From positions 6,388,001 through 6,452,000 of the forward strand of contig NC_079876.1 of assembly GCF_029227915.1 (NCBI RefSeq): a stretch of 64,000 nt of DNA, in the 5' to 3' direction. This document shows positions 6,946 to 64,000 of the stretch, in pieces. Numbering within the stretch: position 1 is the first letter of the stretch; each line of letters starts with the position of its first letter. The position numbers and the translations under genes were made by a program. This DNA comes from Hydractinia symbiolongicarpus (taxonomy: Eukaryota > Cnidaria > Hydrozoa > Anthoathecata > Hydractiniidae). The notes under the pieces are model-generated. The model had not been told where the DNA came from. It was given only the letters and a program-made list of their open reading frames with translations, and did not search any database.

Positions 6946-6949
6946 ATTT

Positions 6950-8370
6950 TCGTTTTTATTTCATTCAGGAAGCGACACATGTCAAAGGTCACGTGTTTTT
7001 TAAACTGTCTCAAACATGCACATGGTGCAATGTAGAGTGAATCTTATTACAAACATCAACTGATATACTTTCTCAACCTCGTCCCCAAGTCTTGTTAGGC
7101 CTTTTATATTTTGAAGGCCCTGGCTGTTCACGTGACGACAGAATACCCACGTATAGTGGGTATTTTGAAAATAATTATTTGTCTCGCTCTTCCATAATAT
7201 ACACAAGCAGTCGAGAAAAAAATGAAAGAATTGACACAATTATTTAGAATGGTTAAAATAATATTAATAAGAAATAAATTATATATATTTTTATATAAAT
7301 ATTTTTATATAAATATTTTTATATTGTAAAAATTATTTTTATTTTTTTTTAATAATATTATTTAATGTATAAAAGAACTGTTAATAAATATTGTATAATA
7401 TATTAAACATTCACACTTGCGTACCTGTTCTTAATTTCCAGTACTTCTCCCCTTTTTTTAAAACTTCTTCCCATTTTAAAACGTTCATCTTATCCTGATT
7501 ATACTGAAGAATAGCAATTTAACATTTATTAAGTAAAATTCGAAATAATAAAGCAAATATAAAGACATATTTTTTTGTGTTTACATGATACTCGTCAAAA
7601 GCCGCCATTATGTGGTAATTTTCTTTGTGGCATTAAATCCAGTTTGACGACATCTCCTAGATGGTAAAAGAAACCCCATGAACATGTTGCAGCAAAACTC
7701 ATAAAACATTTTGGTAAATAATTATAAAATTAATGTCTAAGACAAATAGAAGTTGTGCCAGAAAGCAATCTTTCTTTTCAGTCTCCCAACAGGTAAGAAT
7801 CAACGAGCTGCGTGAACCATCCCCGTCTCCAGAATTTGTTACCTGATAAGTCAAAGCCGCTAGCGCTTGGGCTACATCTCAAAAAGTCAAGAACCCCTGA
7901 AGACGAGGTTGTTGACAGAGTAGATACTTTTTCAAGAGGAGTATAATAAAAGATGAACACTTTTCATCGGATCGGATTTTGATCAAAGATGTCAAAAAGT
8001 AAATGGAGTCCTGCGCAAATTTCAGCACAGATTCTGCGCAAATTTCAATACGCACTCGTCTTTTACGTTGCACCTAAGGCTTCCCTTATTATAAACGGGA
8101 ATTTACGGACTTCTATTATGATCTGCGCATTAATTTTGCTTGCCGGAACCTTAGCCTGTTTGCGTAAATTCCATCCTCGACCACAGGACATGTCGTGATG
8201 ATCAACGCTTTCTGAATCAAAAACGCTTCCTGAGTTAAACTGTGTAAACAACAAAAACTCTGTCCGTGTGGGCATTGCTATACATTTTCTACTCTTTGGA
8301 GGACTTTTCCGTGAGGGAAGTAGCAAAATAAATTATTGCACATCTCCAGTACCTGTTACAATCTCATCTT
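6950..8370. repeat. Dispersed repeat, copy 1 (also at about 32.3-32.9 and 62.6-64.0 kb)
   Basis: From the block TTCATTCAGGAAGCGACACA onward this segment matches 62640-64000 almost continuously. The main difference is a stretch of about 100 bp (about 7528-7636) absent from the 63-kb copy. Part of it (about 7490-7960) matches 32380-32900 with more divergence. The window ends inside the 63-kb copy, so the true right end is unknown. No terminal repeats were found. Confidence 0.8.
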
Positions 8371-8929: not shown

Positions 8930-9395
8930 GTGCAAAAATAACTTTTATATTCCATGCAAAGAACACGATTTCATGTGAAGTATTCACAAACTTTCTTTTG
9001 TGTAAATTATTTGAAATATCACGATACAATGTAAGAACTACGTTGATATTTCACACACAGAACACGAGTTCGTGTAAAGTAGACACGAACTTTCTTTTCT
9101 GTAAATTCTTTGAAATATCCAGATACAATGTAAGAACTACGTTGATATTTCACACACAGAACACGAGTTCGTGTAAAGTATTCACGAATTTTCTTTTGTG
9201 TAAATTATTTGAAATATCACGATAAAATACAAGAACTACGTTTATATTTCACACACAGAACACGAGTTCGTGTAAAGTATTCACGAACTTTCTTTTATGT
9301 AAATTATTTTAAATATCGCGATACAATGAAAGAACTACGTTTATATTCCACACACAGAAGACGAGTTCGTGTAAAGTATTCATGAATTTTTTTTT
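8930..9395 (+). repeat. 99-bp tandem repeat, about 4.6 copies
   Basis: The marker CACACACAG recurs at 9052, 9151, 9250 and 9349, a constant 99-bp step. Each unit contains AACACGAGTTCGTGTAAAG, itself a short inverted repeat (ACGAGTTCGT), and GAACTACGTT. As 99 is divisible by three, the frame 8881-9225 stays open and encodes a Cys/Phe-rich 33-residue repeat. Expression is unsupported and this is more likely a minisatellite. Confidence 0.85.
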
Positions 9396-9720
9396 CTTTA
9401 ACTTTTGTCATGATTCGTCACTTGATTCTTTGTCGACTTTTTCGCTTCTATCTTTTTCTCTACAAAAAATAAGTATAATACATTACAAATTCAATCTTTA
9501 ACAGAGACAGTCTGTGTAGAATCTTGAGGTCGACAGAACAGGCCCTGTTTAAAATATCTCCGTCCTAGAACTGTCATTTCTAGAAGACAAGGAAGTAGCA
9601 AAAACATATCATAACTTATGTTTATTAACATCAAAAATAAATATGTATTTCTAAATAACTATTTAGTGACAGTATACAAATGTCGTCCACAGAACATTGT
9701 TTTTTTGTTTCAGGAGCATA
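9396..9720. other. Intergenic, nothing recognised
   Basis: No supportable coding or repeat signal. Confidence 0.35.
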
Positions 9721-29460: not shown

Positions 29461-31186
29461 GATATACGGAAATTATTTTTTAAAAAAAACTGAGACTTAC
29501 TGCGAAATTGGAGTAGTTAATTTGGGAAAACTTTTGCTGGGTTTCAAGCGATTTTTTTGCGGCCAGAAACTGGCCGAGCTTTTTGATTGGCTAATTCTAT
29601 TGTTCTTTGCCCACGTGGTCCATATCAGGGATAGCCCATTTCATCCGAATATTGGGGAAGTGGTTTCTTTCACCCTAACAAACATTACTAAACTATGAAG
29701 ATTTTACCATAGTAAGATGCGACCAAACTTGGTAAACAACTTTCAAATAAATTAAAATGGCCACTGAAGCGGACATTGTTTAATATAAACTTGGTGTTTC
29801 CGCTGAGTCATTCGTTTGTCTCTAAGCTTTTGTTTGAGAGAAACTCATTTTATTAACCTGGAAGAAGAATGCTTAGTTAACTAGGTCAGATTTTTATTTC
29901 TTTGTTCTGAGTAGAACCAACAAACCTCCAAGATTTAGGAGTTAATTGAAAATATAGTGTAGCGTCTGAGTCTGAGTTAATAGTTAGGCAGTTGATTTCG
30001 AATTTCGCACCAAATTTAAAAACACTATTTGACTCTACTTTTCGTTTTCCAACACGCACCTCTTGACCATACTTAAATTTTCCATAATACTTTGCAAGAA
30101 AGATGCTTTGTACTGGTTCACTGCTCCTTACAAAACTGAGCGGCTTTGCAGGTTGTATGATGCCATTCTTTACTGTAAGTCACGTGGCGTAATAATTACA
30201 GAGAAACTCTTATAACGACTATAGCCTCGTTTCTACGATATTTAATTATTGTGAAAATAATTTTATAAAGAAGAAATATTACATCAGAACTTCGCAAAGA
30301 TAAAGCCTCCTTTTTAAGTTCGTTACAATATAGTAATGAATAAACTCTTTTTTAAGTTGCTCTTTCTTAAAAAAGCAAATCAACAATTCATTTTATGGTA
30401 AAATTTAAACTCCGTTGGTTCTTTGTTTTTCCTGTTCACCTTTTTTTGCGGTCTTGCAGCATGCCATATAGATAAAAAAAAAAAACCTAGGGACGAGAGT
30501 GCTAGATAAGGCAATATTGATATTTGGAAATTTTTTTCTTCCTTCTAAGAAAAACTAAATAAAGCCAAGATATAAACAGCTGGTCATGCTATTCTCCAGA
30601 AAAACAGATATATATAAAAATCACTGGGGTCGAAAGTGCTAGACTAGGCAGTATTAATATTTGGTAAATTTGTTCCCCTTGTTTTATAAAAGGCTAAATA
30701 AGTCATGGAATAAACAGCTAACCATCCTATTCTCCAGGGATCATTACCTGTTCGTTCTTTTCCCGCATAAGAAGTAGATAAAAAATCCCTGGGGACGAAA
30801 GTGCTAGACTAGGTTGGTTTATAAAAACGCATTATGTTATCGTAGTAATTGTAGGAATAGCTATATTTACTTCAGAGATTTTTATTAAAAATGTCATGTG
30901 AAATTATTTTAACAGGCGAAAAATTTTTGAGTTTCGAATTTAACTGAAACATTTCCGTGGTTCATACAAGTATAATATTTTCTCCTGAATTTATGCTATA
31001 CATGATGACGTCAACATATTAATATTAACTTGAATAGAAATAAATTTTGCAATTAATTATTTGATGTTTAATACATTAACTTTGTTTATAAAATGTTTTA
31101 TAATTAAAATGTATTTAATCATGTCATATTTCACGAATTTATAAATTCATTTTTTTCATTCATTCATTTAGTATTTTTATTTTTAG

Positions 31187-31497
31187 ATATCCAGAGACTA
31201 ACGATATCAAAATTCAACAGTTATCATTTGGCTGCATCATATGATCGTCACTCAATATTAGATATGTTATGTCGACATGATGTAACAAACATCAACCCTG
31301 TAAATGTTAACAACCGCACACCATTACATTATGCTGAATTGTATGGTCACATCTCATGTGTGGACGTTTTGTTGCGTCATAAAAATATTGATGTGATGAT
31401 CAAAGATAATCATGGAGGAACAGCTTATGATTGTGCTGGAGGGAGGTTGAAAAAACAAAACTGGGAAATAATAAGACGAAAATTAAAAGAATACGAA
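31187..31497 (+). CDS. Truncated copy of the ankyrin exon, still open
   Basis: Copy of exon 60819-61300. The TTTTTAG acceptor and GTAAGTTATT donor are kept, as are the phases (1 in, 0 out). An internal deletion of about 170 bp removes the first ankyrin segment but leaves the frame open for 103 codons: DIQRLTISKFNSYHLAAS..., NNRTPLHYAELYGHISCVDVLL, NHGGTAYDCAGG. Two ankyrin repeats remain. No upstream HEPN or helicase exons were found near it, so it is either an exon of a lost or rearranged paralogue or an exon pseudogene. In-frame survival is notable. Confidence 0.55.
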
Positions 31498-32339
31498 GTA
31501 AGTTATTTAAATAAATTGGAAAAGAATAAATTTGTATTTTATTTTAATTTGAAAATAATAAGGATTAAATAAATTTTTAAATAAATATTTAGGTATGGAA
31601 TGTTTTTATTTTTTTAAATTTTTGTGCGTGGTATAAGAAATTAAAAGATAAATTAAGAGTAAAGTTTTATTTTTTAAAATTTCATAACAATAAGGAGAAA
31701 TAATAGTGAAAAAACGGATGTAATGATTCGCGATGAGAAAAAGATGATATTTTTAAACGGAGTAAACTAATTAACAAATTGAATGTAGTGAATAAAACTT
31801 GAGAATAAAGTGTGGAGGTTAAAAATAGTGAATACTTATAGTTTTAATAATTCTGACAGCTTTGATTTTTTATGTATGTAGAAATAATGAACAGAGACAG
31901 CGGAATAAAAAAGAGATAAAGTGTGATGTGTGTGAACATGCCAACCTGGGCGTTGGCGAAAGCTTGCTGAAAGATATATTTGGATATGTCGTAGATTTTG
32001 TCGTTCTTATTATTTTTTAAAATAAAAAATTATAATGAAATTAAAAAAAATAAATCTAAAAGAACAGAGAAGAAGTCAAAATACAATTTCGTACCCAGAC
32101 TGATTTATATTTTACATCTTCTGAAATTGATTGTTATCATTGAAAGCATGAATTGATTATTATAGATCTAAAAATAATTAAATAAAAAGTTATTTAAAAA
32201 ATTTAAATACAGAATGTCACGATGTTTCGTAATCCGAAATTATTTTGCATTTTTGCATAGAGATTGCACAAATTTCGCGTTATAATGTGAGTTATGTACA
32301 AATTGACGCATTGTCTCTCATTTAGAACGCATGGTCACA

Positions 32340-32900
32340 TGATGGCTGTTTTAATGTTGAAGTAGCTATACTTTCCAGTCTTATCCTGATTATACTGAAG
32401 AATAGTAACATAACAGTTATAAAGTAAAACTCGAAACAATAAAACAAATATAAAGACACATTTTTTTGTGTTTACACATCACAAAAGCCGCCATTTTGTG
32501 ATCATTGATTTTTCGTATTATTCGCAGTTTGACTTCATCTCCCGTTTTCCAAAAAGTAGCACCATAAACATACTGCCCTAAAACTCCTGAAACAATTCTT
32601 GGCGAAAAAAATGAAGATGAAATTATTGAAACTAAATTTATTTTTGTGAGTAATTATAACACACTTGTCTAAGAAAAAGGGAAGTAGTGCCAGAAAGCAT
32701 TCTTGCTTCAAAGGCCTTCCAACAGGTAAGAAACAGCCAGCTGCTTGGACCATTTTCGTCCCCTGGATATGTTGCCTGATATGTCAAAGCAGCTAGCGCC
32801 CGGTCTCCAAGTCAAGACGAAAGAACCTCTGGGGACAAAGTTGTGCGTAGACTTATTAACAAAGTTGATACTGTTCAAAAAGGAATATAAAATAAGATGA
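32340..32900. repeat. Dispersed repeat, copy 2 (diverged)
   Basis: Matches 7490-7960 (CTTATCCTGATTATACTGAA, AAAGCCGCCATTTTGTG, CCAACAGGTAAGAA) with several changes. Confidence 0.65.
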
Positions 32901-33600
32901 GCACATTTCGTGATAAAGATAAAAATCTCAAATTTCTAATTAACAATTACAGACAATAGAATTCCAACACCAACGATTTTGATTGATCTATTTTAAAAAA
33001 ACATACTGCGTCTAATTCTAGTTGTTGTGTTTGGGTTAGCAGTCAAAAAATTCATTATTGAAGTGAAACTGCGTCTAAATTAGCTGTCAGCAAGTTTATT
33101 AAAAAAAGAAGTATATTGTAGACTGTATTCTAAAAACAGCAGCTTGTTTTGTAGCCCATAGAACCTTATGAGCACTTCAGAATAACAGATTATCTTTATA
33201 CCAAATTTAAATTAGGGTATTAAATACTTTACGACGTCAGACAAAAGCATTCAAACGCAAACGTATTTGACTGATTTAATTTAAATAATATACTGCATGT
33301 TTGCGTAAATGATTGGGATTTTTATATACAATGTTAAATAGATGTCTGAAAATTTCATAAACAATATATAGCTAGCTGTTAGAAAATGTATTTACTGGAT
33401 CACATTTAAAGAAAATGAAAAACGTTTTCTTAATTATTTACAATTACTTTAAGGCTAGGAGATTCAAAAAGTTAAAGTAACAATTAAAGTAAGAGCCCTT
33501 CACGAATTTCCATAACTTAATTGATAAAAGGATTTATTCTTCTTTTAAGTATAACTATTAAGTTAAACTATTTTTTCTGTCATTACAACTTTTCCTATTC
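32900..33600. other. AT-rich intergenic, nothing recognised
   Basis: No feature I can support. Confidence 0.35.
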
Positions 33601-33907: not shown

Positions 33908-34937
33908 ATGCCAAGTTGCCTGGCATATGGATGTTCGCAAACCACTGGGAGAGTAACTGCTAAAAAAGGTTTTTTTCATGATCCCAAAGCCAGTGAATAC
34001 AACTGAGAAACTTCGCGCAGCACAATGGTTGCATAATATTGGTACTGGATTGAATGTAGAAACATTTCCATTTGGGAAAAATAAAGTTGTATGTGAAGAC
34101 CACTTCCATCCTGACTGCATAAAAGATGATTTAAAAGGACGTCTATCGGGGATAACGTCGAAACGGAAAGAACTACTTTGTGGAGCAGTTCCAACTATTT
34201 TTAAACACAAAACTTACGAATTTATTAACATGGATGGCACTACCGTATTAAAACGTGATTCATCTTTAAAAAGAAAAATGCAGGAAGAATGCCTACATGT
34301 GAGTTACAAAAATCATGTTTTTTAATTTCAACCTTTTCTGGTACAACTCTTTTAGCGAACATATTTAATTAGATAGCCTGGTTTCTATATTGTAATTAAA
34401 ATATAAATGTGTTTCGTAATTTTTTTTAAGTAGTGAAAATAAGTGGAAATTTTATAAAAATTTCCATGAAAAATTCTTAATAAAATTTGGAAAAACGCAC
34501 GAATATTATTACTAGTATTACTTTTTATTATCATATGTTATTTTTGTTATCAATGTTAATGAAAACCAGGTTAAGTTTTCATGCGCACCTGGCTGGACTT
34601 CGAAGAAAAATATAAGGGTTGATCTACACTTCATTTTTTTATTCTAGACCGTAAAGAAGTTACTTAGTGAAAACAAAGAAACCACACTTTCACAGACATT
34701 ACATTTCATAGTAATGCACCCAAGCCGTATATTGTCTGTATGCTGAAAAGCGTAGTTGTCTAAAAAGAATATAATATGTTTTGTTGTTGTGGAACCTAGG
34801 CCTTACAAAATGTTGTATACATATTTTTAAATATTCTTTGACTCACATTCAGTAAACGAACTTTTATGTAGATAAAGAACGCACTTTTTTTTCGCATATG
34901 AAGTAATATTTTATATTTGTTTTGACAGGTAGAATAA
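33908..34937 (+). pseudogene. THAP-domain gene in the transposon, frameshifted
   Basis: The start reads MPSCLAYGCSQTTGRVTAKKGFF, the opening of a THAP zinc finger (C..GC). A T7 run at 33970-33976 then shifts frame; the rest of the domain is in the +1 frame: LRAAQWLHNIG, VVCEDHFHPDCI (the C..H pair) and the typical end GAVPTIF. The first exon ends at 34298 before GTGAGT; an acceptor GACAG at 34928 gives a second exon that reads VE and stops at 34937. The product would be a THAP-only protein of about 135 residues. The single shift in a homopolymer could be real decay or a sequence error. Confidence 0.75.
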
Positions 34938-34946
34938 TAAGCTTAC

Positions 34947-35419
34947 TTGTTTTGAAAAGATTTTATATCCTTGAAATTATTTTGATATCTGCGATGTCTA
35001 ATGCTTGCTGTCTCTAATACGGTGCGATTTAAACAAAGAATATTAAAATCTTTATGCAAGGTAATACATGTATTCTCTTCCAGCTTTTCTCCCAGTAAAG
35101 TTGTAAACTCGAAACAACACTTGCATTCTTCAACAGTCATTAACTCGTGTATATCACATTTTTTACACTTACACCAATGTAAGTTTTCTAACCTGCTTGA
35201 GTCTAAATCCTCATCTTCGTCGTCGTCTGAAATATCATTCGCAGTTTTTGATGAACAAATGTTTTTCAACTGACTTTCAGTATATTCAGGTTCGTTATCA
35301 TAACACCCTTTGCAAATACTTTCATCTGTTTCAGAACTATATACTTCGCTATGTTCACTAGCACAACTACTTTTTTCGCTACTATCCATGACTAAGTGAT
35401 TTTGAGTCTCGCGGCTCAT
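34947..35419 (-). CDS. First half of a P2X7-type cytosolic (ballast) domain, transposon-borne
   Basis: The reading frame begins MSRETQNHLVMDSSEKSS, followed by an acidic stretch (DDDEDEDLD). It then has WCKCKKCDIHELMTVEECKCC, the WCxCxxC...ECxCC Zn-coordinating start of the P2X7 intracellular domain, and later CITLHKDFNILCLNRTVLETA. The exon ends at a GTAAGC donor (34946 down). The expected next exon (YRYAAYRQF...) was not found on this strand in the element. The domain is known from vertebrate P2X7 tails and as stand-alone proteins in many invertebrates. The start is taken at the first Met and no transmembrane segment is present. Confidence 0.7.
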
Positions 35420-35629
35420 ACGTCATAATTCTGTATGGTTCACGAGGAACCGTGAATGGAGTACACGGTTAATTTCAGAAAACCTTAGAACTTTAATGGG
35501 CTAAAACAGCCTAAATAATGAAAATTAAGAGTTAATTTTTTTTTCAATAGTTTATTTAGATGTTATACAACGTTCTTAATTTTTTTTTAATAACATTTTT
35601 TTTTGACCTTAGTTTCCCTTTAATATTCC

Positions 35630-45487: not shown

Positions 45488-45644
45488 TCACTTTCTTTGA
45501 AGCCAGTATACATCCCCATTCGGACCTGGATATTCTCTACGTATCCTAGACACGACACAAGATTGTATCACCCGACGAACACCTTTTCCCAAGTGGTTAT
45601 GAACAAACCAATAAAATTGGCGGTATGCCGCATATCGATAAGAT
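45488..45644 (-). CDS. Terminal exon with second half of a P2X7-type cytosolic domain
   Basis: After a TTTTTAG acceptor the minus strand reads SYRYAAYRQFYWFVHNHLG, VRRVIQSCVVSRIRREYPG, and stops. YRxAAYRQF and the IxSCxxxRIRxEFP-like end are hallmarks of the C-terminal half of the P2X7 cytosolic domain. Its phase (2) matches the donor of the half-domain exon at 34.95 kb, but it lies upstream of that exon in transcription order, so the two cannot be one gene as arranged. It is probably a separate fragment. The first-half exon was not found between 45.65 and 48 kb. Confidence 0.65.
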
Positions 45645-46345
45645 CTAAAAATATCATCTTCAAAAAAGATTGGAAGCAAGAGTGCTAGCGACCTATTTGT
45701 TAGAAACTTCGTCCTTTTTTTAAGTCTACGGCTTTCCTGATTGTGAATAGCGACTATCGCTGTCCACAAAGTTTTGTTTAAAATCACAACAGCGTTGAAA
45801 TCTTCGTGCTCTGTTATACATTTCTTATCAAAAACACAACAGAAACCTTATACCCAGGCGCTCATTTATAATACAACCAAAAGAAAAATGTGAGGTCAAA
45901 TTTTACAGGTAGCGTAGCTGGAAGTAATTTATAGTGTCCACCTCGTTACAGCATAAACAGTCAACAGCTATAGGCATCCTTTCGCACTTTTGCACATAGG
46001 CACCACTCACTGATCTGGTGTGTCTGCTTCATTGTCATTATAAGAGGGAATTTTTTGTTTGTTATTGAGTCGTTCTGGCTCAAACTGAAATTCAATTATG
46101 TTTACATTTCTGTTTGTGAACATGATTGATAATTGTAAAAAAATTCTATTGGAAATATCATTAACATTTTTTCGTTATTTCTCTAACTGCATGCGCCAAT
46201 CTCTACACGGGGTAAATCAATGAATACGTCATTGCATAAATTGCGCATATTAATGTTTTTACCCAGTCCTTTTCCGCTTTCGAAGTTCAGTAAAGATGAG
46301 AATTGAGAATGGCATGGTCAAGTAAACAAATTCAGTTTAAACTTA

Positions 46346-50748: not shown

Positions 50749-51998
50749 ATGGCAACGGCAGTACCTCCAACAGGATCTTCTCACCATGCATTGATTGCAA
50801 ACAATGAATATCAAATTAAATTGGTCACGCTTCTCAATGAATGTTGTGACCACTTACGTGAAATTTTACATGATCCTGCCCGTGGCAACATGCCAAGGGA
50901 TAAGAAACAATTATATCTGTCATTAAAACAATATAAGAAACATTTAAACCATTTGAAAAGAGATCAGCTGGAAATCGTTTTTCCACAAGATAAGGAAACA
51001 GATTCGGGATTGTTTGACATCACTATTTTATGTGACGTTCTAATTAATTGTTGTCACGGTATACAAGCACCAATTGGTGGATGGAGGACCAGAACACCGC
51101 AACCAAATGATTTCAGTGTCGGTGCTGACATCATTCGAATCAGAAATGAGCGAAATATTGTTATGCATGGAAGAGCAATGACTTCAGCACAATATAATCG
51201 GTTGTGGAACGCCATAGAAGGTATATTAAGAAGACTCGGATATGACATAACGAAAATTAGAGATTTGAAGTCTGGTTGTTTAAAAGACTTGGACTTATTT
51301 AAGATTGAAATTATGAAAGCAGTTACTGAAATTTTAAATTTCAATGTTAACAAAAACCAAGACAATATAAAACAAAATCAAGATGACATCAAAGCAAATA
51401 AAGACAGTATTCATCAAAACGAAGATGGTATTAAACAAAATCAAGATGACATCGAAGCAAATAAAGACAGTATTCAGCGAAACGAAGATGGTATTAAACA
51501 AAATCAAGATGACATCAAAGCAAATAAAGACAATATTCAGCAAAACGAAGATGGTATTAAACAAAATCAAGATGACATCAAAGCAAATAAAGACAGTATT
51601 CATCAAAACGAAGATGGTATTAAACAAAATCAAGATGACATCAAAGCAAATAAAGACAGTATTCAGCAAAACGAAGATGGTATTACACAAAATCAAGATG
51701 ACATCAAAGCAAATAAAGACAATATTCATCAAAACGAAGATGGTATTAAACAAAATCAAGATGACATCAAAGCAAATAAAGACAATATTCATCAAAACGA
51801 AGATGGTATTAAACAAAATCAAGATGACATCAAAGCAAATAAAGACAATATTCAGCAAAACAAAGATGGTATTAAAGAGAATAAAGAGAATTATAAGCGA
51901 TTAGCAGCCGAAGTGGAAATAGTAAAGCAAACTAATTCTTCATCATCATGTGATCAGAAGAGTTCTCAGTTGGAAGAAACTATAAAAGAACAACCCAG
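50749..51998 (+). CDS. Exon 1 of main gene: HEPN_DZIP3 domain and heptad stalk
   Basis: Starts at the first ATG after an acceptor-like TATAG. LFDITILCDVLINCC, GGWRTRTPQPNDFSVGADI and RIRNERNIVMHGRA match the HEPN_DZIP3 family pattern (FDxTLL...P..GW...P...D.S..A.I.RIR..RN....H). R135 and H140 form the R-X4-H signature of catalytic HEPN RNases. The repeat stalk follows. Donor GTGTGT at 51999; reading through it would give a premature end after a hydrophobic tail. Confidence 0.88.
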
Positions 51999-54900
51999 GT
52001 GTGTAATTCTTTTTCTATATTGTTCTATTATTAAATTGATTCTGTCAACTTAACATAAAAGACAAATATGGTAAAGTAAAATTTTCATTCAATTAAATTC
52101 CACTTTATCTTGGTGTAACTAAATCACTTTTCTGTAATGATTTCAATGCATAGGAGAGTCATCAGCAATAAGAGTACATCAGATTGAAATTATGACAGCA
52201 CTGATTGAAATACAAAAATGTAAAGTAAATAAAAACAAAGACAACATTAAGTAAAATCTAAATAACTTAAAGAATGAACTATTTATATTCAAGTTGATGT
52301 AAAAAAAAACCAAAACGGAGTTAGGAACATTCAAAACGATTATGATTGAAAGACGGAATGGGAACAGTAAAGTCCTTTGTTGTCATCGTGTCGTTCAAAA
52401 ACTTGTCACTTAAAACGGCCTAGAAAGAAGATACCTTTCTTTCAAAAAATAAGATTTTATCGTTTTTTAGGACAATATTTCATACAGTTACTTATTATTC
52501 TGATTTATATTTAAATGTTTATTTTAGTTATATACTATTAAAAAATTTCCGAGGAGATTTTCTAATACAATTTGAGGATGGCTGCTCCCACTGGTCTATG
52601 AAAAGTGTACAAGTCATCATTACTGAAAATTTTGCGATACAATCAAAAGAACTTCATGTCGACAACGATTACATTGTGGAAGAAGAAGAAGGGAAACTAA
52701 TCCTGATTATTTACAATCACATTGCCGAATCTATTAATGGGTTATCAGTTACGTTAGTTGACAGTGAAAGTAAAACTCATTTGATTCCAATTAAAAGTGA
52801 GTAAATTTAGATAATGTATTCTATCTAGTACGGAAAAAATGAATAAGGAGTTGGAACAATAAAAACAAAACAGAACAAAAAAATACATTACTTACTAATG
52901 TAGCTGTGCATGGGGGCAGAGCACAATTAAACAAGTTGGGAAAGCTATATTTACAAGTAGAACAAATTTAATCTTAAGGGTTTATTTAAAATATTATTCG
53001 AACCATAAAAAAAACATTGTCAAGATTTTGTTAGAATAGCAATCATTTCAACGATGCAAGCCATTTACCTCGACAAAAGTTTTACTTTGGCTATGAGAAC
53101 GCAAAAATATATAAAAATTATTGCAAAGATTCTTGAATAATAACGTTTAGTATTCTACACAAAAAATTTAACGTCTCTAGCGCGTTGTTTTGTACAGCAC
53201 TTTAGATTAAAATTGGTTGAGTAGAAATGTTGCAAAGTAAAATAATTTTTTTAATTAGATATTGCACTGGTCCGAGCACATATGTGTACAACCAGCTATT
53301 TTGATGTTAGAACCCACAACAGTGGAAGAATATCTGAACATATAAAATGCATTGTAAAAGCAGAAATAGAAGAAGAAGATATTGAATTTATATGTGGAGG
53401 TAGTCTACAAACAATGGAGCCTAAGGAGTACGAAGCACTTGGAAAGGAATACATCCAACGTTATTTCACCGTGAATGAAGAATGCATGGAAGAACCACTC
53501 CAAATTCCACCCCCAATGCCAAAAGTCACACATTCCTTATTTGCACAAAAGATAAAGTATGTTATAATCGAATTACAACCTCGTTTGTTTACAATATTTA
53601 CTCATTATAACACAAAGGAACATATTCGATTTCTAAAACTGGATAAAGAATTTTCTTTGAGTTTGGAAAGCACAATTACTGATAACAAAAGAATTCTACT
53701 TGTGTTGCCAAATTATATCGTCAACATTAGATACACAGAAACAACCGACGCAGTAAGAATACAAGATGAAGTCAAAGCGGGCGAAGAAGACTTGAAGGAG
53801 CTATCTATCATCACTAAAAAATATCTTAAAAATGGTCACCTGACAATGGTTAATGTTGTAGCTGCACCACATTTCAAAGATATCGAAAATATCCACCTTT
53901 GTGTAGACTGCAACTTACTCTCCAAAAAAACTTTGGCTGAGGATAGAAGTATGACGAAGTTCTTTTCAAATATTTTGCAAAGCTCACAAGTACAAAATAA
54001 TGTTCAGGACAACAAGGAACGGTATATCAACATGGTTGGTAAAGTCATGTGTTTCATGGCTACAAGAAAAGCACTCTATTCTGTTCCTTCACTCAGTAAA
54101 AACGTCCACGAACAAATAAGCTCGTTAATACTTTCTCCACAGCAACTCCGTCATTTATACAACAACTCTTTAAAAAAAATTATAATCGGTCCTCTAGGCA
54201 GTGGAAAGACAGTGCTAGCTTTAGCACATTTGGAAATAGCTTACGAGCGCTCTGAGAATAGATCAGTCATATACTACGTTATTTGGGACGGCAACACATT
54301 GCTTAAACGGGATATTGTCAATCATACTAAAAGATTTAATTTCAAAGCCGCTGTCGAAGTTGTTGTAAAGGATAATGTCGAGTTAGCTAAGGATTTGAAA
54401 ATGAATGAAGTGCCAACACCATACCAGTTATTAGAGTCATTGGTTAAGAAACATGTTGACCAAAACCTGCATCTAATAATTGATGAATTAAATGGAGAGT
54501 TATTTAACAAGGAAGAATCATCTTTGCTTAAACACTATCTGGAAACTGAAGACAAATTAAATAACTCTTTCATCATCTTTTTCCCACAATCCATTGAGAA
54601 ACATAGAACATTAATTTCACACCAAAGAGTCACAATACATGACAAGTACAAGTATGAAGAAACAGGAATGAAAGTTTTAAAACTGAACAGAGCAATGAGA
54701 ACAACACGGATAATCTTTCAGTTTTTAAAGGCTTTTGAAAATGAAGTAGAACAAAACAAGGTAACAATGAAGCTTCCCGATCAGCAATCAAAAGAAGGAT
54801 TGTCCACCAAACAACCACAACAGCAGCAAGAGCCACAACGGCGACAACAACAACAACAGCAGCAGCGACAGCAGCAACCACCACCACCACCACCACCACC

Positions 54901-57900
54901 ACAACAACAACAAGGACAAACTACCAGTAGCAATGTCACGCCGATAATAAAAGGAGAAGAAGAAAGTTTTGAAACACCGGTTGATATTGATGTCGTTGCA
55001 GCTTCAATACAAGATGGGGATCTTTCGGGTAATGTTAGAATTGACACTTCATTAAAATTTAATACAGCGTATTCAATCGGTCATAATATCGAAGGAACAA
55101 AACCGTTATTGATACATCCGGCAAATACTCCAACAACAGACAAAGAGTTTATACCGATGTTAGCGCTTGTTTTACAAGATGTATGTTTACATCATGCCAC
55201 TAAACGTTTGTTCATATATAACACATTCCCTCAAAAGGATATTTTTTACAGATTACTAAAACTGTTAAAAATTGATTTTCTTCACTATGACAAGTACACT
55301 GACTGGAAAGTTTTAAATGGTGATGATATCATAGTTAAAAATCCCTTGCAGAGCCAAAATTATAACCTGCTCACTACTATTGAGGGAAGTCGTGGAGTTG
55401 AAGCAGCCGAATGCATCTGTATAATTGAAAGCAATGATTGCAAGTTAAAACATTTGACATTAGAAGCAATGTCCAGAGCGACACAAAATCTAGTCCTTGT
55501 TTCAACGTCCAACGTTTACCAATCAGGTACAGTAAAATCATCAACTGGTCATATCATCAGTAAACTGTTAACTGAACATCTGGTTGAATACAATCTAGAA
55601 GTCTCAAACGATGAAGATACGGAAATACCGTTCAAAAAGTCTATGAAAAGTAACAATAAAATAGTTTTTAACATTAAACCACAATATTGGAAATTCAAAG
55701 AAATGATAAAAGATTTGGAACATGTTGGTTTTCAGGCAACGGATGAACTCCTAAATGCGCATGAGTTCGTTATGAAAAAGTAAGTAAAATTTTTAAACAA
55801 TAGAGAACAAATTCTCTTTTGAATAGTTCTTTAAAAAATTTAAATTCAGTGATTCATATTAAAGAATTGGATGGTAAGGGTTGTGTTATATTAAAATAAA
55901 AAACCCCCACGAGATGACCAAAGTGTGATCATTCGCAATCCTCTCTCCTTTCTTTTGTGAAATTTGTTCTAGAGAGGCAAAAAAATCACGACATATGTAT
56001 CAGGACCTATTCTGTACTTAATAAAAACATTGTAAGAGTTTTCTGATGTTAAAAATGTTAACCTGCTGCTAAGCATGAAAAAAAAAAATATTATTAGACA
56101 AAATTTTGATCATCTTTTAATTTATTTTATTAAGTAAAAGTCATTAGTTTTGTTAAAAAATATGATATAAATGCAATATTAATAATTTTAGCCTTTATCC
56201 TCCTGGAAAAGTGAGCAATATAATTTGCTCATATTTGTCAAGTACATCATGTATATTGAGATGGCAACAGCACGCTAATAAATACACCGTTAGTAGACAA
56301 GAAAGTAAAAGTTTAACCTGGAATAACTTAGCAACTAACATTTCTTGCAATCAATACATCGTTGATGACATGGAAATTGGTGAATCGTGCAAGTTTTGTG
56401 TTGTTGCTAAAAATCATCTTGGTGTATCTGATGACAGCACTGTGTCTTATCGTCACGAGTAAGATTTTATTCAACTTCTATTAAAAACATTTTATAGCCA
56501 TGTGTTAAAAAGTATGTCAGGCTTCAGGAATATTAACATGTGCTCAATTTTTTTAGACTTCCAAACGTCATGGGTGTCCAATTTAAAGGTAAGAGAAATA
56601 GTTATCGTTTTATCAGCATAATTTTAAGCTAGAAAATCACCACAACACTCTTTGTCACAAAATAGGCATAAAAAAATTAGCTTGACAAAATAGACAGAAA
56701 TAAGTGTTGACTAATTGTGTGATTTAAAAAAATTAACATTTATTAAAAAATTTTCTTGTTCATGTTGTTATTTACCTGTTACAAAAAGAATGCGGAATAG
56801 TTAAATATTTGCTTTCTTCGTTACCCATATTACAACAAACAAATTATTCTAATTATTTGTTAAACATTTAATTTATTACTGTACTTATACCATGGGACAC
56901 GCAAAGTCAATTTAATGACACTATTGTCTGAAACAAATTTAGTCCTAGAACCTTTTAAGAATTTTTTTTCCATCTGGTGTTGCTTTTAAAACAGATCTTT
57001 ACTAAAAACGTAAGAGGTTATTAGACGTTTTTGTTTTCCTTTTGTAAAATTTCGACAATGTTTTCTTTCTCGGTCATATGACATTAATTAAGAGAAACTA
57101 AGTGTTATCAAGTAAAAATAAATCTACTCTGCACATTGGTAATATATATCCTAAAAGGAGGCTTTGGAGTGACAAAACATCAAAGGCAAAAGTACTTCCG
57201 CTAAAATGTAGTGTGCTGATGTTGCTGTTGTGTCAATAAAAGTGATACAAAACTTCTCACTTGGTATTAATAAAGTTTTCAAACTTTGTCAATAGAAAAA
57301 ATTTTGTTCAAATATTGCCATTAATTTTATTACTATCTCGTGGTTGCTCGATTTATTCAAATCATTTGTTTAGTATAGATTATTAATAATTTAAAAGTAA
57401 TACATATTTTTTGCATAATTTCTGGTGTAGTTTAGCCTAGTTAGCTAAGTTTTTTCTCGGATATCTAATTCAGTTTTTCTCAAACGAAAGTTTAGACGCA
57501 AACAAATGTAGAGCAATTCCCTTAAATTTAAATTCAAACCACGCATTATTTATGGCTATATCGTACTTTGCTGGGCATAGTTAAAGAAGCAAAGATAAAC
57601 TGCTCAACAAGTGTATGCAAAGTGAGAACGTCCTTTTGAGACCTACATTTACCTGCAAAAGGGATATTTTTACGAAGCGAATTGGGAATAGCGAATTCGG
57701 CGGCTAATTACCAGCGAAATATCTATTTGATTTTCACGGGAAACAAAAAAAACATGTGACCAATTTAACATTCTGAGTGTAAGCACTTTTTCTGGTATTA
57801 AAAACCGGATAGTTATTTTGAATTCTAAATAAACAGTTTTCTTATTGGTTAAAAGATATTTTATAAAATATTTCTACTTTTCGGGGAAGAGAATTTTTCA

Positions 57901-60900
57901 AAGCAAAATCAAAACAAACAAAACTTTGCATGCTCAGATATATTTAGTTGGCGAACTCGTTTAGCAATACAAACAATGAGGCTGAGGAAAAGAAAACAAA
58001 ATAAGAACATCGGCAAGACTAAAACACCAATTTTCTCTCTACTCCCGAGAGAAATACATTTGGCAAAAAGAAATTTTAGCAGAATCAATCGCAAATGTTT
58101 TTATGAATCTTTGAAATGAATAACAAAATAAAAACTACTTTTACCGGTACATGTTATAATAAGGAACATTTCAGGCTGTAACGAATATAAGCGTATATAT
58201 TGTAAATGTACCTTCAAGCTTCAAGTTTACTCCAATGCAACACTAAAGCTTGCTGACTTACCAAATTTCACACCAAGTTTAAAAAAACTATTCCCTTTTG
58301 CCTTTTCTTTTTGAACCCGTAGCTAGCTCTCGGTCATACTTAAATTTCGCATAATAATTTGAAAGTTGATCACTTTGTGCAAAGTTGGACAATGTTGTAT
58401 GATGCGAATCCTCCCTGTAAGTCGCTTGGCGCACTATTTACAGTAAAACTCTTATAACGACTACAGCCTCGTCTCTATGTTATATGGACTTTGCAGAGGG
58501 AAAAGCCTGTTATTCAAGTTAGTAATGAAAAGCCTTGTTTTCAAGTTACCCACATTTGAAAAATATTGCTAATAGTAACCACCCGGTGAGAAAAAACAAA
58601 CAATCATAAGCAAATCAAATCATTTCGTCGTAAAATTTAGACTGATTTTTTCTTTCCTTGTTCTGACTAGAACGAACAAACTCCCCAAATTTATAGTGTA
58701 GCGTGTGAGTCTGAGTTAGTGTTAGGCAGTTGATTTTGATATTTAAAGCGCATATTTTGTAAATATACATCATAGATTCAATTTTACTCCAACACATACT
58801 CTAAAGCTGGCTTAATATACCGAATTTTGCACCAAGTTCGGAAACACTATTTACATTTACCTTTCGTTTTTGAACACATGGCTCTCGGCCATACTTAAAT
58901 TTTGCTGAATACTTTTCAAGCAAGATGCCTCGTACCACTTTACTGTTCCATACAAAGTGGCTTTCCTGAAGTTGATCACTTTGTACAAAGTTGGTCAATG
59001 TTATATGATGCGATTTCTCACTGTAACTCGCATGGCGTACTATTAACAGCAAAACTCTTATAACGACTACAGCCTCGTTTCTATGTGATTTGATTTTGTA
59101 AAAATTACATTAGAAATTTGCAGAGGGAAAGCCTGTTTTTCAATTTAGTTACAATATAGTAATGAATAACCTCGTTTTCAAGTTTTCCACATTTTTTAAA
59201 AATTATTGCTAATACTAACCATCCGGCGGGAAAAAAACAATCATAAGCAAATCAAAAGTCATTTCATCGTAAAATTTAGACTCGGTTGGTTTTTTGTTTT
59301 AACAATATCTTTTTCCTAAAGCTGTTGAGTTTGAATTTTTGCAATATCTAAGGCTCGTGCTCTTTTTTGTTCTTATAAAGAAACCCGCACAGTTTTTAAT
59401 CGATCGCGTGTCAGAGAAACATCTTTGCAATATTCGTACAGACGAAATCGAATATATTGAGTACAGTCGTTCTATTTTTATCACTATATCATACTCAACC
59501 AAAACGAATATGTTTCATTCAGCAAATAATGTTGATAAAATGTGTGAGGTGAGAGAAAATTTAATTTTGATAAAAGAAGTAGCTAGTTTTTATTATACAT
59601 TATTTTTATTCATGAGAAACCCGTTTACAATTAATGGAGTATTTACTAAGAGCTGTGTACCTAAGTCTCGTGTTCTTTAGAACTTGTTCTTATAAAGAAC
59701 CGATCGCGTGTCAGAGAAACAATCTTTAAAATATTCGTGCAGACGAAATCGAATATATTGAGTACAGTAGTTCTATTTTTATCACTATATCATACTCAAC
59801 CAAAACGAATATGTTTCATTCAAGAAATAATGTTGATAGGTCGTGTGAGGTGAGAGAAAATTTAATTTTGATAAAAGCAGTAGCTAGTTTTTATTATACA
59901 TTATTTTTATTCATGAGAAGTCTGTTCACAATTAACGGAGTATTTACTAAGAGCTGTGTAATTTTAATTTTTTTTTAGAATTTAAACTGAAAAAACTAAC
60001 AAACTCTTTTTGCGTGCTTGAGATTATGCTCTGTCTTGCAATTTTCTCCATACAATCTGAAAAAGCGTTATTTGTTCAATATTAATATTTAGTGAAGTTT
60101 TTTCTTTGTTCGTAAGAAACTAAATAAAGTCATGGAATAAGCATACTAGCCAGCCTCGGTTTTAGGGATTCATCGCCGTCTTCCCACATGCCATATAGAT
60201 AAAAAAATCCCTAGGGACAAGAGTGCTAGATTAGACAATACTAATATTTGGTAAAATTTTTCCTTTGTTTTAAAAAGCTAATTGAAGATTCATGAAATAA
60301 GCAGACTATCCAGCCTCGTTTCCAGATCTAGCCCAGATTTATCTTTTTGTTATTTTCCGGCATAAGAAATAGATAAAAAATCCCAGGGAAAGAAAGTGCT
60401 AGACTAGGTTGGTTTATAAAAACGCATTATGTTATCGTAATAATTGTAGGAATAGCTATATTTACTTCCGAGATTTTTATTAAAAATGTCATGTGAAATT
60501 ATTTTAACAAGCGAAAAATTTTAGGGTCTCGACATTAACTGAAACACTTCCGTGGTTCATACAAGTAGAATAATTTTCTCCTGATGCAAATTATCCTATA
60601 CATGATGACGTCAACATATTAATATTAACTTAAATAAAAATAAATTATTACTATATTTTTTGTTTCTGTGTTTTCACAATTACTTTTTTTATGTTTAATA
60701 CATTATAAAATGTTTTACAATAAAAAAAAAGTATTTAGTGATGTCATAAGTTTTTCGTTATCATGTTTCATTAATTTATAAATTTATAATTTTTATTCAT
60801 TTATTATTTTATTTTTAGATATCGTGGAAATTATTAAATCTAACGATATCGAGAAACTGAAAAAATTACTATCCATTCATCCAAACATCGTTCACATGAG

Positions 60901-62399
60901 AGGTGAAGATGATTACACACCATTGATGTGGACAGTATGGATCACCGACAATACATCAATGGTGGAAATACTCATCTCATATGGGAGTGATGTTTGGGCG
61001 GAAGATAGTGTGAAACAAAACAGTTATCATTACGCTGCAATGCATGATCGTCACACAATATTAGATATGTTATGTCGACATGATGTAACAAACATCAACC
61101 GTGGAAATGTTAACAACCGCACACCATTACATTTTGCTGCAGTGTTTGGTCACATCTCATGTGTTGATGTTTTGTTGCGTCATGAAAATATTGATGTGAC
61201 GATCGAAGATGAAGATGGATATACAGCTTATGATTATGCTGGAGGATGGATGAATGAACAAAACCGGGAAATAATAAGACGAAAAATAAAAGAATACGAA
61301 GTAAGTTATTAAGTTGATTTAATAAATTAGAAAGAAGAATAAATTTGTATTTTATTTTAATTTGAAAATAATAAGGATTAAATAAATTTTTAAATAAATA
61401 TTTAGGTATGGAATGTTTTTATTTTTTTAAATTTTGGTGCGAAGAAATTAAAAGTTAATAAATTAGAAAGAAGAATAAATTTGTATTTTATTTTAATTTG
61501 AAAATAATAAGGATTAAATAAATTTTTAAATAAATATTTAGGTGTGGAATGTTTTTATTTTTTTAAATTTTAGTGCGTGGTATAAGAAATTAAAAGTTAA
61601 AAAATTAGAAAGAAGAATGATTTTTTTATTTCTTTTAATTTGATAATAATGATGATAAATGAAAGTTAAAAAACGAATGAAATGATTCGCAATAATAAAA
61701 GGATGGATGATTTTTATTTGAGTGAAATAAACTAATTAACAAATTGAAGGATATAATGAATCTAAATTTAAGAAACTTAAGAATAAAATGTTGAATGTCA
61801 AAAATATTTTTTTATAACAAATTGGATAAAATGAATAAAATACTTAAGAATAAAATGTTAAGGTTGTCAAGTAGATTATTGTGACAGTCCAAAGTAGAAA
61901 GTATTTTTAATAAAAAATAGTGAATTATTATAGCTGTTAACAATTCTGACAGCATTAATTTTTATGTATGTAAAAATAATGATAAGAGATGTATATATTA
62001 TAACGAAATTAAAAATAATAAATTTTATAAGAGAAAAAGAAGAAGTAAAAATACAATTTCGTACCCAGACTGTTTTTTATTTTACATCTTCTGAAATTGA
62101 TTGTTATTATTGTTAGCATGAATTGAATATTATAGATCTGAAAATATTTAAAATAAAAGATATTTAAAACATTCAAAAATAAGAATGCCACGATGTTAAA
62201 CTTTTTTTTCGTAATCCGAAATTATTTTATTTTTTGCATAGCGATTGTACAAATTTCGCGTTATAACAGGATTTTATGAACAAATTGACAGATTGTCTCT
62301 CATTTAGAAGACATGGCCATGACGATGGCTGTTCTAATACTTAAGTAGCTATACTTTAAAATAACAAATCTTTTTATCTTTCAGGACAGGACGAAGTAA
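50749..62399 (+). CDS. HEPN_DZIP3 / coiled-coil / SF1 helicase-like / FN3 / ankyrin protein, seven exons
   Basis: Exons 50749-51998, 52528-52796, 53259-55779, 56192-56458, 56557-56588, 60819-61300 and 62385-62399 join with phases 2, 1, 2, 2, 1, 0; the sum is 4,836 nt, exactly 1,612 codons. Domains by residue: HEPN_DZIP3 about 20-180 with R135-X4-H140; heptad stalk about 200-381; beta-rich exon 417-506; unknown region about 507-800; SF1 helicase-like NTPase with Walker A 817-824, Walker B D915-E916 and C-terminal helicase motifs about 1212-1250, interrupted by a Gln/Pro-rich insert about 1022-1057; FN3 about 1347-1436; ankyrin repeats 1447-1607. No signal peptide or membrane segment, so probably cytosolic. 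By analogy with Schlafen and other HEPN or helicase effectors it may act on RNA in innate defence; that is inference. The first three exons form a strong core. The link to the ankyrin exon crosses a 4.2-kb intron and is less certain. Confidence 0.75.
51367..51870 (+). repeat. 63-bp tandem repeat, eight copies, coding
   Basis: Eight near-identical 63-bp units each encode three heptads of the form I-x-x-N-x-x-x (IKQNQDD, IKANKDS, IHQNEDG and small variants). One related heptad precedes and one follows. Differences between units are few, mainly Ser/Asn and His/Gln swaps, pointing to recent expansion or conversion. All frames on both strands are nearly stop-free as a side effect. Confidence 0.95.
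52150..52290 (+). pseudogene. Decayed duplicate of the exon 1 stalk start
   Basis: AGATTGAAATTATGACAGCA, CTGATTGAAATAC and AAACAAAGACAACATTAAG mirror exon 1 around residues 184-208 (KIEIMKAVTEI..., NKNQDNIKQN). A TAA interrupts it. It lies in intron 1, where an AG precedes it, so it looks like a dead tandem copy of part of exon 1. Confidence 0.6.
52528..52796 (+). CDS. Exon 2 of main gene: beta-rich domain
   Basis: Between TTTTAG and GTGAGT, phase 2 in and 1 out. Reads YILLKNFRGDFLIQFEDGCS... VQVIITENF... KLILIIYNHIAESINGLSVT and ends LIPIK. Alternating hydrophobic strands suggest an Ig- or FN3-like sandwich, but I cannot name it. Confidence 0.8.
53259..55779 (+). CDS. Exon 3 of main gene: SF1 helicase-like NTPase
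   Basis: One 2.5-kb exon after an AATTAG acceptor, ending at GTAAGT. The N-terminal 290 or so residues are unassigned; a VVAAPHF...LCVDCNL stretch sits before the motor. SPQQLRHLYN (Q-motif-like), IIIGPLGSGKT (Walker A), LHLIIDELN (Walker B) and LNRAMRTT are the first RecA half. TTIEGSRGVEAAE and LEAMSRATQNLVLV fit SF1 motifs V and VI in the second half. Between them is a Gln/Pro tract (54804-54912). The nearest kin I can suggest are DUF2075/Schlafen-type and UvrD-like helicases. All key NTPase residues visible are intact. Confidence 0.85.
54804..54912 (+). repeat. CAA/CAG and CCA trinucleotide tract (Gln/Pro-rich)
   Basis: Interrupted CAA/CAG codons followed by eight CCA codons and more CAA, in frame inside exon 3, between the two helicase halves. 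Likely length-variable and a flexible linker. Confidence 0.9.
56192..56458 (+). CDS. Exon 4 of main gene: fibronectin type III domain
   Basis: Reads LYPPGKVSNIICSYLSSTSC, LRWQQ, YTVSRQES, and C-terminal SCKFCVVAKNHLGVSDDSTV. The PP..V, a strand C Trp and the Y/F.V.A.N..G.S..S signature are those of FN3. One domain per exon with phase 2-2 boundaries. Confidence 0.82.
56557..56588 (+). CDS. Exon 5 of main gene: 32-nt microexon
   Basis: Between TTTTTTTAG and GTAAGA; encodes LPNVMGVQFK and moves phase from 2 to 1, which is what the ankyrin exon needs. Confidence 0.6.
57235..57960. repeat. Dispersed repeat related to 19.24-20.03 kb, in intron 5
   Basis: Same ordered blocks as the 19-kb copy (see there). 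Confidence 0.65.
58190..59300. repeat. Two diverged tandem copies of a roughly 500-bp unit, in intron 5
   Basis: 58190-58600 and 58720-59260 share TTTACTCCAA, CTCGGTCATACTTAAAT or CTCGGCCATACTTAAAT, AGTTGATCACTTTGT and CTCTTATAACGACTAC in order. A third copy is at 29990-30250. Confidence 0.75.
59345..59965. repeat. Tandem duplication of about 310 bp in intron 5
   Basis: 59345-59660 and 59671-59960 match at over 90% by eye. The first copy holds an open frame of 113 codons (59339-59680) with EKHLCNIRTDEIEYIEYSR; a one-base insertion breaks it in the second. A GTGTGAG/GTGAGAG donor-like site is present in both, but the phase does not fit the main gene. Confidence 0.8.
60819..61300 (+). CDS. Exon 6 of main gene: ankyrin repeats
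   Basis: After TTTTTAG, reads DIVEIIKSNDIEKLKKLLSI, DDYTPLMWTVWI, MVEILISYGSDV, NNRTPLHFAAVFGHISCVDV and GYTAYDYAGG. The TPLHxAAxxGH pattern gives about four ankyrin repeats. Ends KEYE before GTAAGT. A truncated copy lies at 31187-31497. Confidence 0.85.
61338..61630. repeat. 133-bp tandem duplication in intron 6
   Basis: AGAAAGAAGAATAAATTTG and the following hundred bases repeat from 61329 and 61466, with a third partial start near 61600. A single copy follows the ankyrin exon copy at 31.5 kb. Confidence 0.75.
62385..62399 (+). CDS. Possible last coding exon of main gene
   Basis: After TATCTTTCAG the phase-0 continuation reads DRTK and a TAA. The exon would run on as UTR to a GTGAGA donor near 62448. 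Supported only by one good acceptor and phase. Confidence 0.35.
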   Translation, partial: DRTK

Positions 62400-62639
62400 A
62401 TATTTCAAATGATTTTGTTTTGAAAAACAACAATCAGTTTGTGAGGTGAGACGGTACTTTATACAATTGGATATATTTATCTTTTGTTATTTCTATTTTT
62501 AACTTTCTTTCATGAAATTTATTTATTTTTTAGATGAGGAACGAGTCCATTTTTTAGTTTTATTTTATATTGTAATGAATTTATTTGTAGTAAAACGTAC
62601 TGAAACATTTTTCTGTTCGATTTTTATCAAGCCTTGTTT

Positions 62640-64000
62640 CGTTTATATTTCATTCAGGAAGCGACACATGTCAAAGGTCACGTGTTTTTTTAAACTGTCT
62701 CAAACTTGCCGCATGGTGCAATGTAGAGTGAATCTTTTTTATTACAAACGTCAACTGATATACTTTCTCAACCTCGTCCCCAAGTCTTGTTAGGCCTTTA
62801 TATTTTGAAGGCCCTGGTTGGTCACGTGACGACAGAATACCCACGTATAGTGGGTATTTTGAAAATAATTATTTGTCTCGCTCTTCCAAAATATACACAA
62901 GCAGTCGAGAAAAAAATAAAAGAACTGACACAATTATTTAGAATGGTTAAAATAATATTAATAAGAAAAAAATTATATATATTTTTATATAAATATTTTT
63001 ATATTGTAAAAATTATTTTTATTTATTTATAATAACATTGTTTAATGTATAAAAGAACTGTTAATAAATATTGTATAATATATTAAACATTCACACTTGC
63101 TTACCTGTTTTTAATTTCCAGTACTTCTCCCCTTTTCTTAAACTTCTTCCCATTTTAAAAAAGTTCATCTTATCCTGATTGTACTGAAGAATAGCAATTT
63201 AACATTTATTAAAATTAAATTTTTGTAGGATGAAATCTAGTTTGACGTCATCTCCTAGATGGTAAAAGAAAGCCCATGAATATGTTGCCGCAAAACTCAT
63301 AAAACATTTTTGTGAATAATTATAAAATTAATGTCTAAGACAAATAGAAGTAGTGCCAAAAAGCATTCTTTCTTTTCAGCCTCCCAACAGGTAAGAATCA
63401 ACGAGTTGCGTGAACTATCCTCGTCCCCAGGATTTGTTGCCTGGTAAGTCAAATCCGCTAGCGCTCAGGCTACATCTCAATAAGGCAAGAACCCCTGGGA
63501 ACGTGGTTGTGCGTGGACCCATGAACAGAGTAGATACTTTTTCAAAACGAGTATAATATAAGATGAACACTTTTCACCGGATGTTTTGATCAAGGCTGTC
63601 AAAAAGCCTTTGGTAAATTTTAATCATAGTAAATGGAGTCCTGCGCAAATTTCAGCATAGATCCTGCGCAAATTTCAATACGCACTCGTCTTTTACGTTG
63701 CACCTAGGGCTTCCCTTATTATAATACAGGAATTTACGGACTTCTATTTTGTTCTGCGCGTTATTTTTGCTTGCCAGAACCTTTGATCGTTTGCGTGAAT
63801 TCCATCCTCGATCACAGGACATGTCGTGATGATCAACGCTTTCTGAATCAAAAACGCTTGCTGAGTTAAACTGTGTAATCAACAAAAACTCTGTCCATGT
63901 GGGCATTGCTATACATTTTCTACTCTTTTGCGGACTTTTTCGTGAGGGAAGTAGCAAAATAAGTTATTGCTCATCTCCAGTACCTGTTACAATCTCATCT
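62640..64000. repeat. Dispersed repeat, copy 3, runs off the right edge
   Basis: Matches 6950-8370 (see there). Contains the open minus-strand relic 63652-63957. Confidence 0.8.

Follow-up and report, generated by a model that had tools for sequence, protein, structure and literature searches.

Which kind of protein joins a HEPN domain, a helicase-like motor and an ankyrin cassette in one chain, and to which known system does it stand closest? The question is raised by a gene of the hydroid Hydractinia symbiolongicarpus, located at 50749–62399 on the plus strand of a 64,000-nucleotide stretch of contig NC_079876.1 (positions 6,388,001 to 6,452,000), hereafter the window. In the ankyrin exon of this gene the framework is conserved while the surface varies, uncoupled from change in the other parts of the gene. 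This ankyrin hypervariability, a large gene family and a probable nuclease-like domain emerged beyond the bare sequence of the window. The hydroid family is likely to represent so far undescribed intracellular immune sensors, because the ankyrin surface is distinct in each of 17 copies and is mounted on an architecture of HEPN or TIR domain plus motor; a literature search at the level of titles and abstract openings found no description of it.

A seven-exon gene and its relatives

The chain comprises seven exons, which join in phase into one frame uninterrupted by stop codons, and six introns, each of which begins with GT and ends with AG. The coding sum of 4,836 bases, equal to 1,612 codons including the stop, yields a product of 1,611 residues. 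Exon 1 (50749–51998) carries the start codon, the HEPN_DZIP3 domain and a coiled stalk, exon 2 (52528–52796) a domain of ~90 residues, and exon 3 (53259–55779) a Schlafen-like block consisting of a probable nuclease-like domain and a superfamily 1 (SF1) motor. Exons 4 and 5 (56192–56458 and 56557–56588) together encode an FN3 domain, exon 6 (60819–61300) an ankyrin cassette of four repeats with hypervariable surface positions, and exon 7 (62385–62399) the final four residues, DRTK, and the stop.

The first-pass annotation of this locus had proposed seven exons of mutually compatible phase, 1,612 codons and the order HEPN, stalk, motor, FN3, ankyrin. The order holds, and the exon model is borne out by the GT–AG introns, the open frame and LOC130629385 (P0002), a RefSeq model of 1,607 residues from the same species that is independent of the window exon chain. 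The six residues spanning each junction are matched in P0002 at all six junctions, and the C-terminus is the same. The two proteins are 99% identical over residues 640–1440 and without any difference in HEPN, exon 2 and FN3; the stalk contains one further residue difference, beyond the set scored below, and a Gln-rich tract is four residues shorter in P0002. Another member, P0009, extends uninterrupted for 1,475 residues from HEPN through ankyrin on a contig of only 4,575 bases, and its sequence is most simply read as that of a spliced transcript.

Three protein searches, which scored candidates sharing words (two of the three only the best ~8,000), yielded 29 relatives, comprising 23 H. symbiolongicarpus RefSeq loci and six others. 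This is a lower bound, further members may exist elsewhere, and the family comprises at least 23 RefSeq loci. P0022–P0028 were left out of the family counts, as their listed domains and small coverage indicate ankyrin or HEPN matches only.

The hypervariable ankyrin cassette

The ankyrin module matches Ank_2 in Pfam with an E-value of 3.2e-18 in the window, as had been anticipated, and this assignment, like that of HEPN_DZIP3, is certain at the level of sequence profiles. Of 22 members with an ankyrin region, we compared the 17 cassettes whose identity to that of the window reaches 70% or more, in a repeat register set by eye from alignments to DARPins. Repeat positions 2, 3, 5, 13 and 14 account for 20 sites, of which 18 display four or more kinds of residue; among the remaining 141 positions, 8 do so (p 9e-16). 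These are the positions that we take to be randomised in DARPins, and published work on designed ankyrins describes the randomisation of surface positions of the repeats. Position 10 joined the surface set after the data had been inspected, bringing it to 24 positions, of which 21 are variable by the same measure, against 5 of 137 elsewhere. Mean identity among the 17 cassettes is 89% in the framework and 26% at the 24 surface positions; all 17 surfaces are distinct, and 75 of 161 positions are invariant. The 21 most variable positions also differ in composition from the remainder, with 15.9% Tyr (3.4% elsewhere), 6.0% Phe (0.2%) and 4.5% Trp (2.1%), and a make-up rich in these three residues is associated with binding sites. 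The ankyrin repeats of fungal NLRs offer a precedent: their positively selected sites fall, with one exception, on the concave face (PMC4986451).

Two close pairs differ mainly in this exon. The sisters P0001 and P0004 differ at 32 of 164 ankyrin residues and at 15 of 1,135 elsewhere (p 1.5e-19), and the window and P0002 at 18 of 165 and 5 of 1,136, respectively (p 6e-13), where ‘elsewhere’ denotes HEPN, exon 2, exon 3 and FN3, with the stalk and the Gln-rich tract set apart. Over the 136 pairs formed by the 17 cassette genes, ankyrin identity (73–89%) is unrelated to motor identity (43–100%; rho 0.004), whereas the nuclease-like domain, the second RecA domain and FN3 follow the motor closely (rho 0.885, 0.903 and 0.826). 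In the 70 pairs whose motors are less than 50% identical, FN3 has a mean identity of 29% and the ankyrin framework one of 89%. In the five remaining members with an ankyrin region (P0008, P0009, P0012, P0016 and P0018), ankyrin follows the motor (rho 0.855, 10 pairs).

The genomic distribution separates the same two groups: 14 of 16 RefSeq cassette genes lie on one contig of 39,956,072 bases, against none of the four RefSeq genes among the other five (p 0.003), when counts are read off the search listings and identical contig size is taken to mean the same contig. This is as expected if exchange needs linkage. Shuffling of single repeats among cassettes was considered and dropped, with one pair observed against 1.3 expected.

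The window contains one further copy of the exon. A diverged duplicate on the plus strand at 29891–32909, extending from intron 5 to the 3' flank, includes a truncated ankyrin exon (31210–31497), and when the window was searched by tblastn with the 29 relatives, this relic, possibly the remnant of a lost sister gene or of a donor cassette, was the sole family exon beyond the gene itself. The codon comparison of exon 6 with the relic, part of a duplicate of ~3 kb, involves a single pair in which one copy is decaying. At 16 surface codons, position 10 included, the nonsynonymous divergence (dN) is 0.71, with 12 of 16 codons changed; at the 79 other codons it is 0.066, with 12 changed, and the overall synonymous divergence (dS) is 0.09. 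Set against all synonymous changes, the nonsynonymous changes are in excess at the surface (p 5e-5) and not in the rest (p 0.55). The synonymous estimate for the surface codons themselves is high and unreliable (2.8 of 8.5 sites), several codons differing at two or three bases. The comparison is supportive of selection on the surface, short of proof; the whole-pair dN/dS of 1.6 was set aside as evidence, since the relic decays. Selection and the exchange of exons between genes would together account for the cassette variation.

A second, smaller patch of discordance lies in exon 2, in which the window differs from P0005 or P0006 at 27 of 90 residues, as against 7 and 9 of 190 in HEPN.

The Schlafen-like block and the N-terminal effectors

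The model of exon 3 and its conserved motifs point to a motor with an SF1 helicase fold (54140–55666), built of two RecA domains. When the predicted structure was compared with PDB chains, Schlafens ranked first and UvrD next; the top matches were SLFN11 and SLFN14 (for SLFN14 there are also structures with RNA or nucleic acid), and the linker plus helicase fold typical of Schlafens is present in the model. The link to Schlafens relies on predicted models at about 10–14% sequence identity. At the level of sequence, Pfam helicase profiles gave no match above cut-off in the window (best ResIII, 17.1 against 22.5 bits), SLFN-g3_helicase reached 13.4 bits in P0014 against a cut-off of 24, and a PDB sequence search with exon 3 returned weakly scoring matches confined to the Gln-rich region. 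Among the best 60 of 492 matches of a PDB profile search, all were ankyrin or titin-type chains, and a search for relatives of the motor in bacterial and archaeal genomes and in viral contigs yielded 23 and 13 pattern matches, none of them confirmed. We consider that the fold match of the predicted structure outweighs the missing profile match. No NACHT-type fold was found among the matches listed for exon 3, although one may occur elsewhere in the ranking.

The motor motifs are conserved throughout the family, by patterns written after inspection of the sequences. Walker A (GPLGSGKT, 54188–54211) is matched in 30 of 30 members, with a final Ala in P0019, and Walker B or motif II (HLIIDELNG, 54470–54496) likewise in 30 of 30. 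Two motifs that we presume to be V and VI follow: LTTIEGSRGVE (55370–55402) in 29 of 30, P0036 having VTNLEGSRGTE, and LEAMSRATQNL (55460–55492) in 30 of 30, with Cys replacing Arg in P0018. A low-complexity insert rich in Gln and Pro interrupts the motor at about 54812–54917. Both the SF1 helicase-like motor and the comparison with Schlafens put forward in the first-pass annotation thus find support in the fold search, the former also in the motifs. Between stalk and motor lies a probable PD-(D/E)XK-like domain (53513–53995). Its activity as a nuclease was considered and abandoned, because N-x-R occupies the catalytic place at which (D/E)-x-K is expected, with N and R in all 27 aligned rows (the strand being assigned by eye).

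The N-terminal module had been anticipated too. HEPN_DZIP3 (PF18738, about 50926–51282) scores 68.9 bits in Pfam against a curated cut-off of 27 (E 5.3e-19) and contains the catalytic-type Rx4-6H motif in the form RNIVMH (R-N-x3-H, 51151–51168); the domain is predicted to cut RNA. The pattern is present in all 16 members counted as HEPN-bearing out of 30, the window included: 13 by Pfam (again with the window), P0005 through its 96% identity, P0018 at a score under the cut-off and P0035 by resemblance only. The long repetitive stalk that follows is a 63-base tandem repeat of 8.3 copies (51366–51887), whose 21-residue unit holds three I-x-x-N-x-x-x heptads, a pattern that we take to be that of trimeric coiled coils. 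The window stalk contains 25 such heptads. Members with this stalk range from 5 (P0007) to 111 (P0005), and the length of the stalk must therefore evolve fast.

Of the first 19 relatives, 17 have a recognisable exon 2 domain. Neither exon 2 nor exon 3 was given a confident family by Pfam, NCBIfam or PADLOC. The predicted FN3 module scores marginally in the window (22.3 bits against the Pfam cut-off of 25) and above cut-off in three sisters (P0016, 30.4; P0018, 25.6; P0031, 25.2 bits); in P0001 the FN3 unit is duplicated in tandem (1385–1484).

HEPN is not the only effector in the family. P0029, P0030 and P0033 carry an N-terminal TIR_2 (Pfam E 9e-17 to 4e-15), a different N-terminal region takes the place of HEPN in P0013 (1–200) and P0014 (1–110), and in 9 of 30 members the effector is absent or incomplete. 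By eye this region of P0013 and P0014 resembles a Death domain, a reading for which neither Pfam searches with the full-length sequences nor a comparison of P0013 1–200 with the PDB gave anything useful. NPHP3_N has weak matches in P0014, P0016, P0029 and P0030. In the motor tree of 30 rows, the HEPN-bearing P0010 and the non-HEPN P0013 are sisters with support 100/98. With the effectors sorted under four labels, including ‘none or incomplete’, parsimony requires 9 changes on this tree, as against a mean of 12.4 for shuffled labels (as few as 9 in 2 of 200 shuffles). The effectors therefore mostly follow the motor and are occasionally swapped.

A proposed mechanism, its rivals and known systems

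With moderate confidence we favour a sensor that would work inside the cell in the manner of an NLR, but with a Schlafen-like SF1 motor at its core. Nonself or pathogen proteins would be bound by the hypervariable face of the ankyrin module; binding would trigger the motor, acting as an ATP-driven switch; and the predicted coiled stalk would pair HEPN domains, which would then cleave RNA and bring the cell to a halt, the invader with it. A second input may come from RNA or DNA bound to the motor. Each of these steps, from the binding of foreign protein through motor switching and the joining of HEPN domains by the stalk to the cleavage of RNA, is a proposal. An immune function, inferred already in the first-pass annotation, is suggested as well, and is the better supported because the effectors vary and the ankyrin exon is hypervariable. 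The wider claim, of a new class of animal intracellular receptor that combines a Schlafen-type motor with killer domains that can be exchanged (an HEPN RNase or a TIR) and with ankyrin cassettes diversified in the germline (‘natural DARPins’), renewed by binding-face selection and by exon exchange among genes largely on one chromosome, is advanced more tentatively.

The matches of exon 3 to SLFN11 and to SLFN14, solved with RNA or nucleic acid, together with the intact ATPase motifs, could instead indicate a nucleic-acid sensor of the Schlafen kind, in which the motor and the nuclease-like domain, on binding viral or damaged RNA or DNA, would set off HEPN as the effector, and the ankyrin surface would vary so as to escape pathogen antagonists or to bind changing viral proteins. 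However, it is the ankyrin surface, rather than the motor, that carries the diversity, and N-x-R stands at the (D/E)xK place of the nuclease-like domain; we regard this sensor as unlikely, though the most serious of the rivals. Hydractinia colonies fuse and reject, and the ankyrin cassette might read partner alleles after colony fusion, HEPN or TIR killing the fused tissue in the manner of fungal het genes; the known allorecognition genes of Hydractinia, however, are the cell-surface Alr proteins. Such intracellular self-incompatibility is favoured by the concentration in ankyrin of the differences between the window copy and P0002, and by the highly variable repeats that fungal hnwd genes use for this purpose (PMC2873952). 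A literature search at the level of titles, abstracts or passages showed no link of such a family to fusion, and we hold this role to be distinctly improbable.

Two further explanations are less probable still. The ankyrin diversity could be neutral drift at exposed sites, or an artefact of gene models that join the wrong neighbouring ankyrin exon, the proteins serving ordinary RNA metabolism; most paralogue sequences are RefSeq models, and the relic of an ankyrin exon is found, apart from the gene, 29 kb upstream. Yet the ankyrin exon of the window is in phase within the gene itself, the variation is concentrated at binding positions while 75 of 161 remain invariant, and drift along with motors of 43–100% identity would not yield a steady framework identity of 80–96%; we judge this explanation very improbable. 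It is less credible still that the family is a selfish or genome-defence element, of anti-transposon or toxin type, and to this we give the least weight. HEPN and TIR are recurrent toxin-type domains, and the window is rich in repeats and contains a THAP piece, but none of the nine window open reading frames scanned makes the gene look mobile, and no linked antidote is known, none having been specifically sought.

Among known systems, the family resembles group III Schlafens (SLFN11, SLFN14, SLFN5) in the linker and helicase fold of exon 3. It differs from them in that HEPN or TIR stands in the place of the Schlafen core, with FN3 and a hypervariable ankyrin cassette added. No Schlafen core domain was matched by Pfam up to an E-value of 1 in pieces of the window, in a search whose filters drop most matches above 0.1, and the SWADL motif of Schlafens, S-W-[AS]-[VGL]-D-[LIV] after PMC8875196, occurs in none of 37 proteins scanned. 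The likeness to NLRs (STAND) is one of domain arrangement, a variable N-terminal effector with C-terminal repeats, the sensor role being predicted. Fungal STAND/NLR receptors with ANK, WD or TPR repeats, hnwd among them, share with the family a swappable effector, an NTPase, a repeat sensor, a concerted framework and selected surface positions (PMC4986451, PMC2873952). In contrast to these, the family has an SF1 helicase-type motor in place of NACHT/NB-ARC, for which no match up to an E-value of 1 was found in the window, carries four non-identical repeats in one exon and belongs to an animal. Cnidarian HEPN_DZIP3–NACHT NLRs share the N-terminal HEPN family and differ in motor and sensor; HEPN_DZIP3 is, LRRs aside, the commonest partner of NACHT in 9 of 15 cnidarian species (PMC8260672). 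To the HEPN DZIP3/hRUL138 family the resemblance consists of the Pfam match and the conserved motif, and the animal fusions listed for it in the available text of PMC3710099 are with TPR, RING, Ankyrin, CARD, NACHT, DEATH and LRR, no helicase being in that list. Because it lacks a defining feature of NLRs and one of Schlafens, we treat it as a separate family, and by kind as a new variant of the effector–motor–repeat receptor, which would operate as NLRs do and is Schlafen-like in fold.

If the proposed mechanism is true, a cnidarian would have evolved a receptor system that resembles NLRs but is mounted on a helicase, linking Schlafens with cell-suicide enzymes of the HEPN and TIR kinds and with hypervariable repeat sensors. 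In an animal that lacks antibodies and serves in the laboratory as a model of self/nonself recognition, it would provide a source of recognition diversity open to testing, along with natural ankyrin binders that could be used to fish for their targets.

The remainder of the window holds minor features. The THAP domain lies in an open reading frame at 33957–34325 (plus strand; Pfam E 9e-10) and is probably a transposase-derived gene piece. Two P2RX7_C-like pieces lie on the minus strand, at 34946–35422 (21.9 bits) and 45491–45847 (25.9 bits; cut-off 23.5). Repeat copies near both ends of the window (6948–8369 and 62637–64000) are 87–93% identical, and a 99-base tandem repeat of 4.5 copies occupies 8960–9401.

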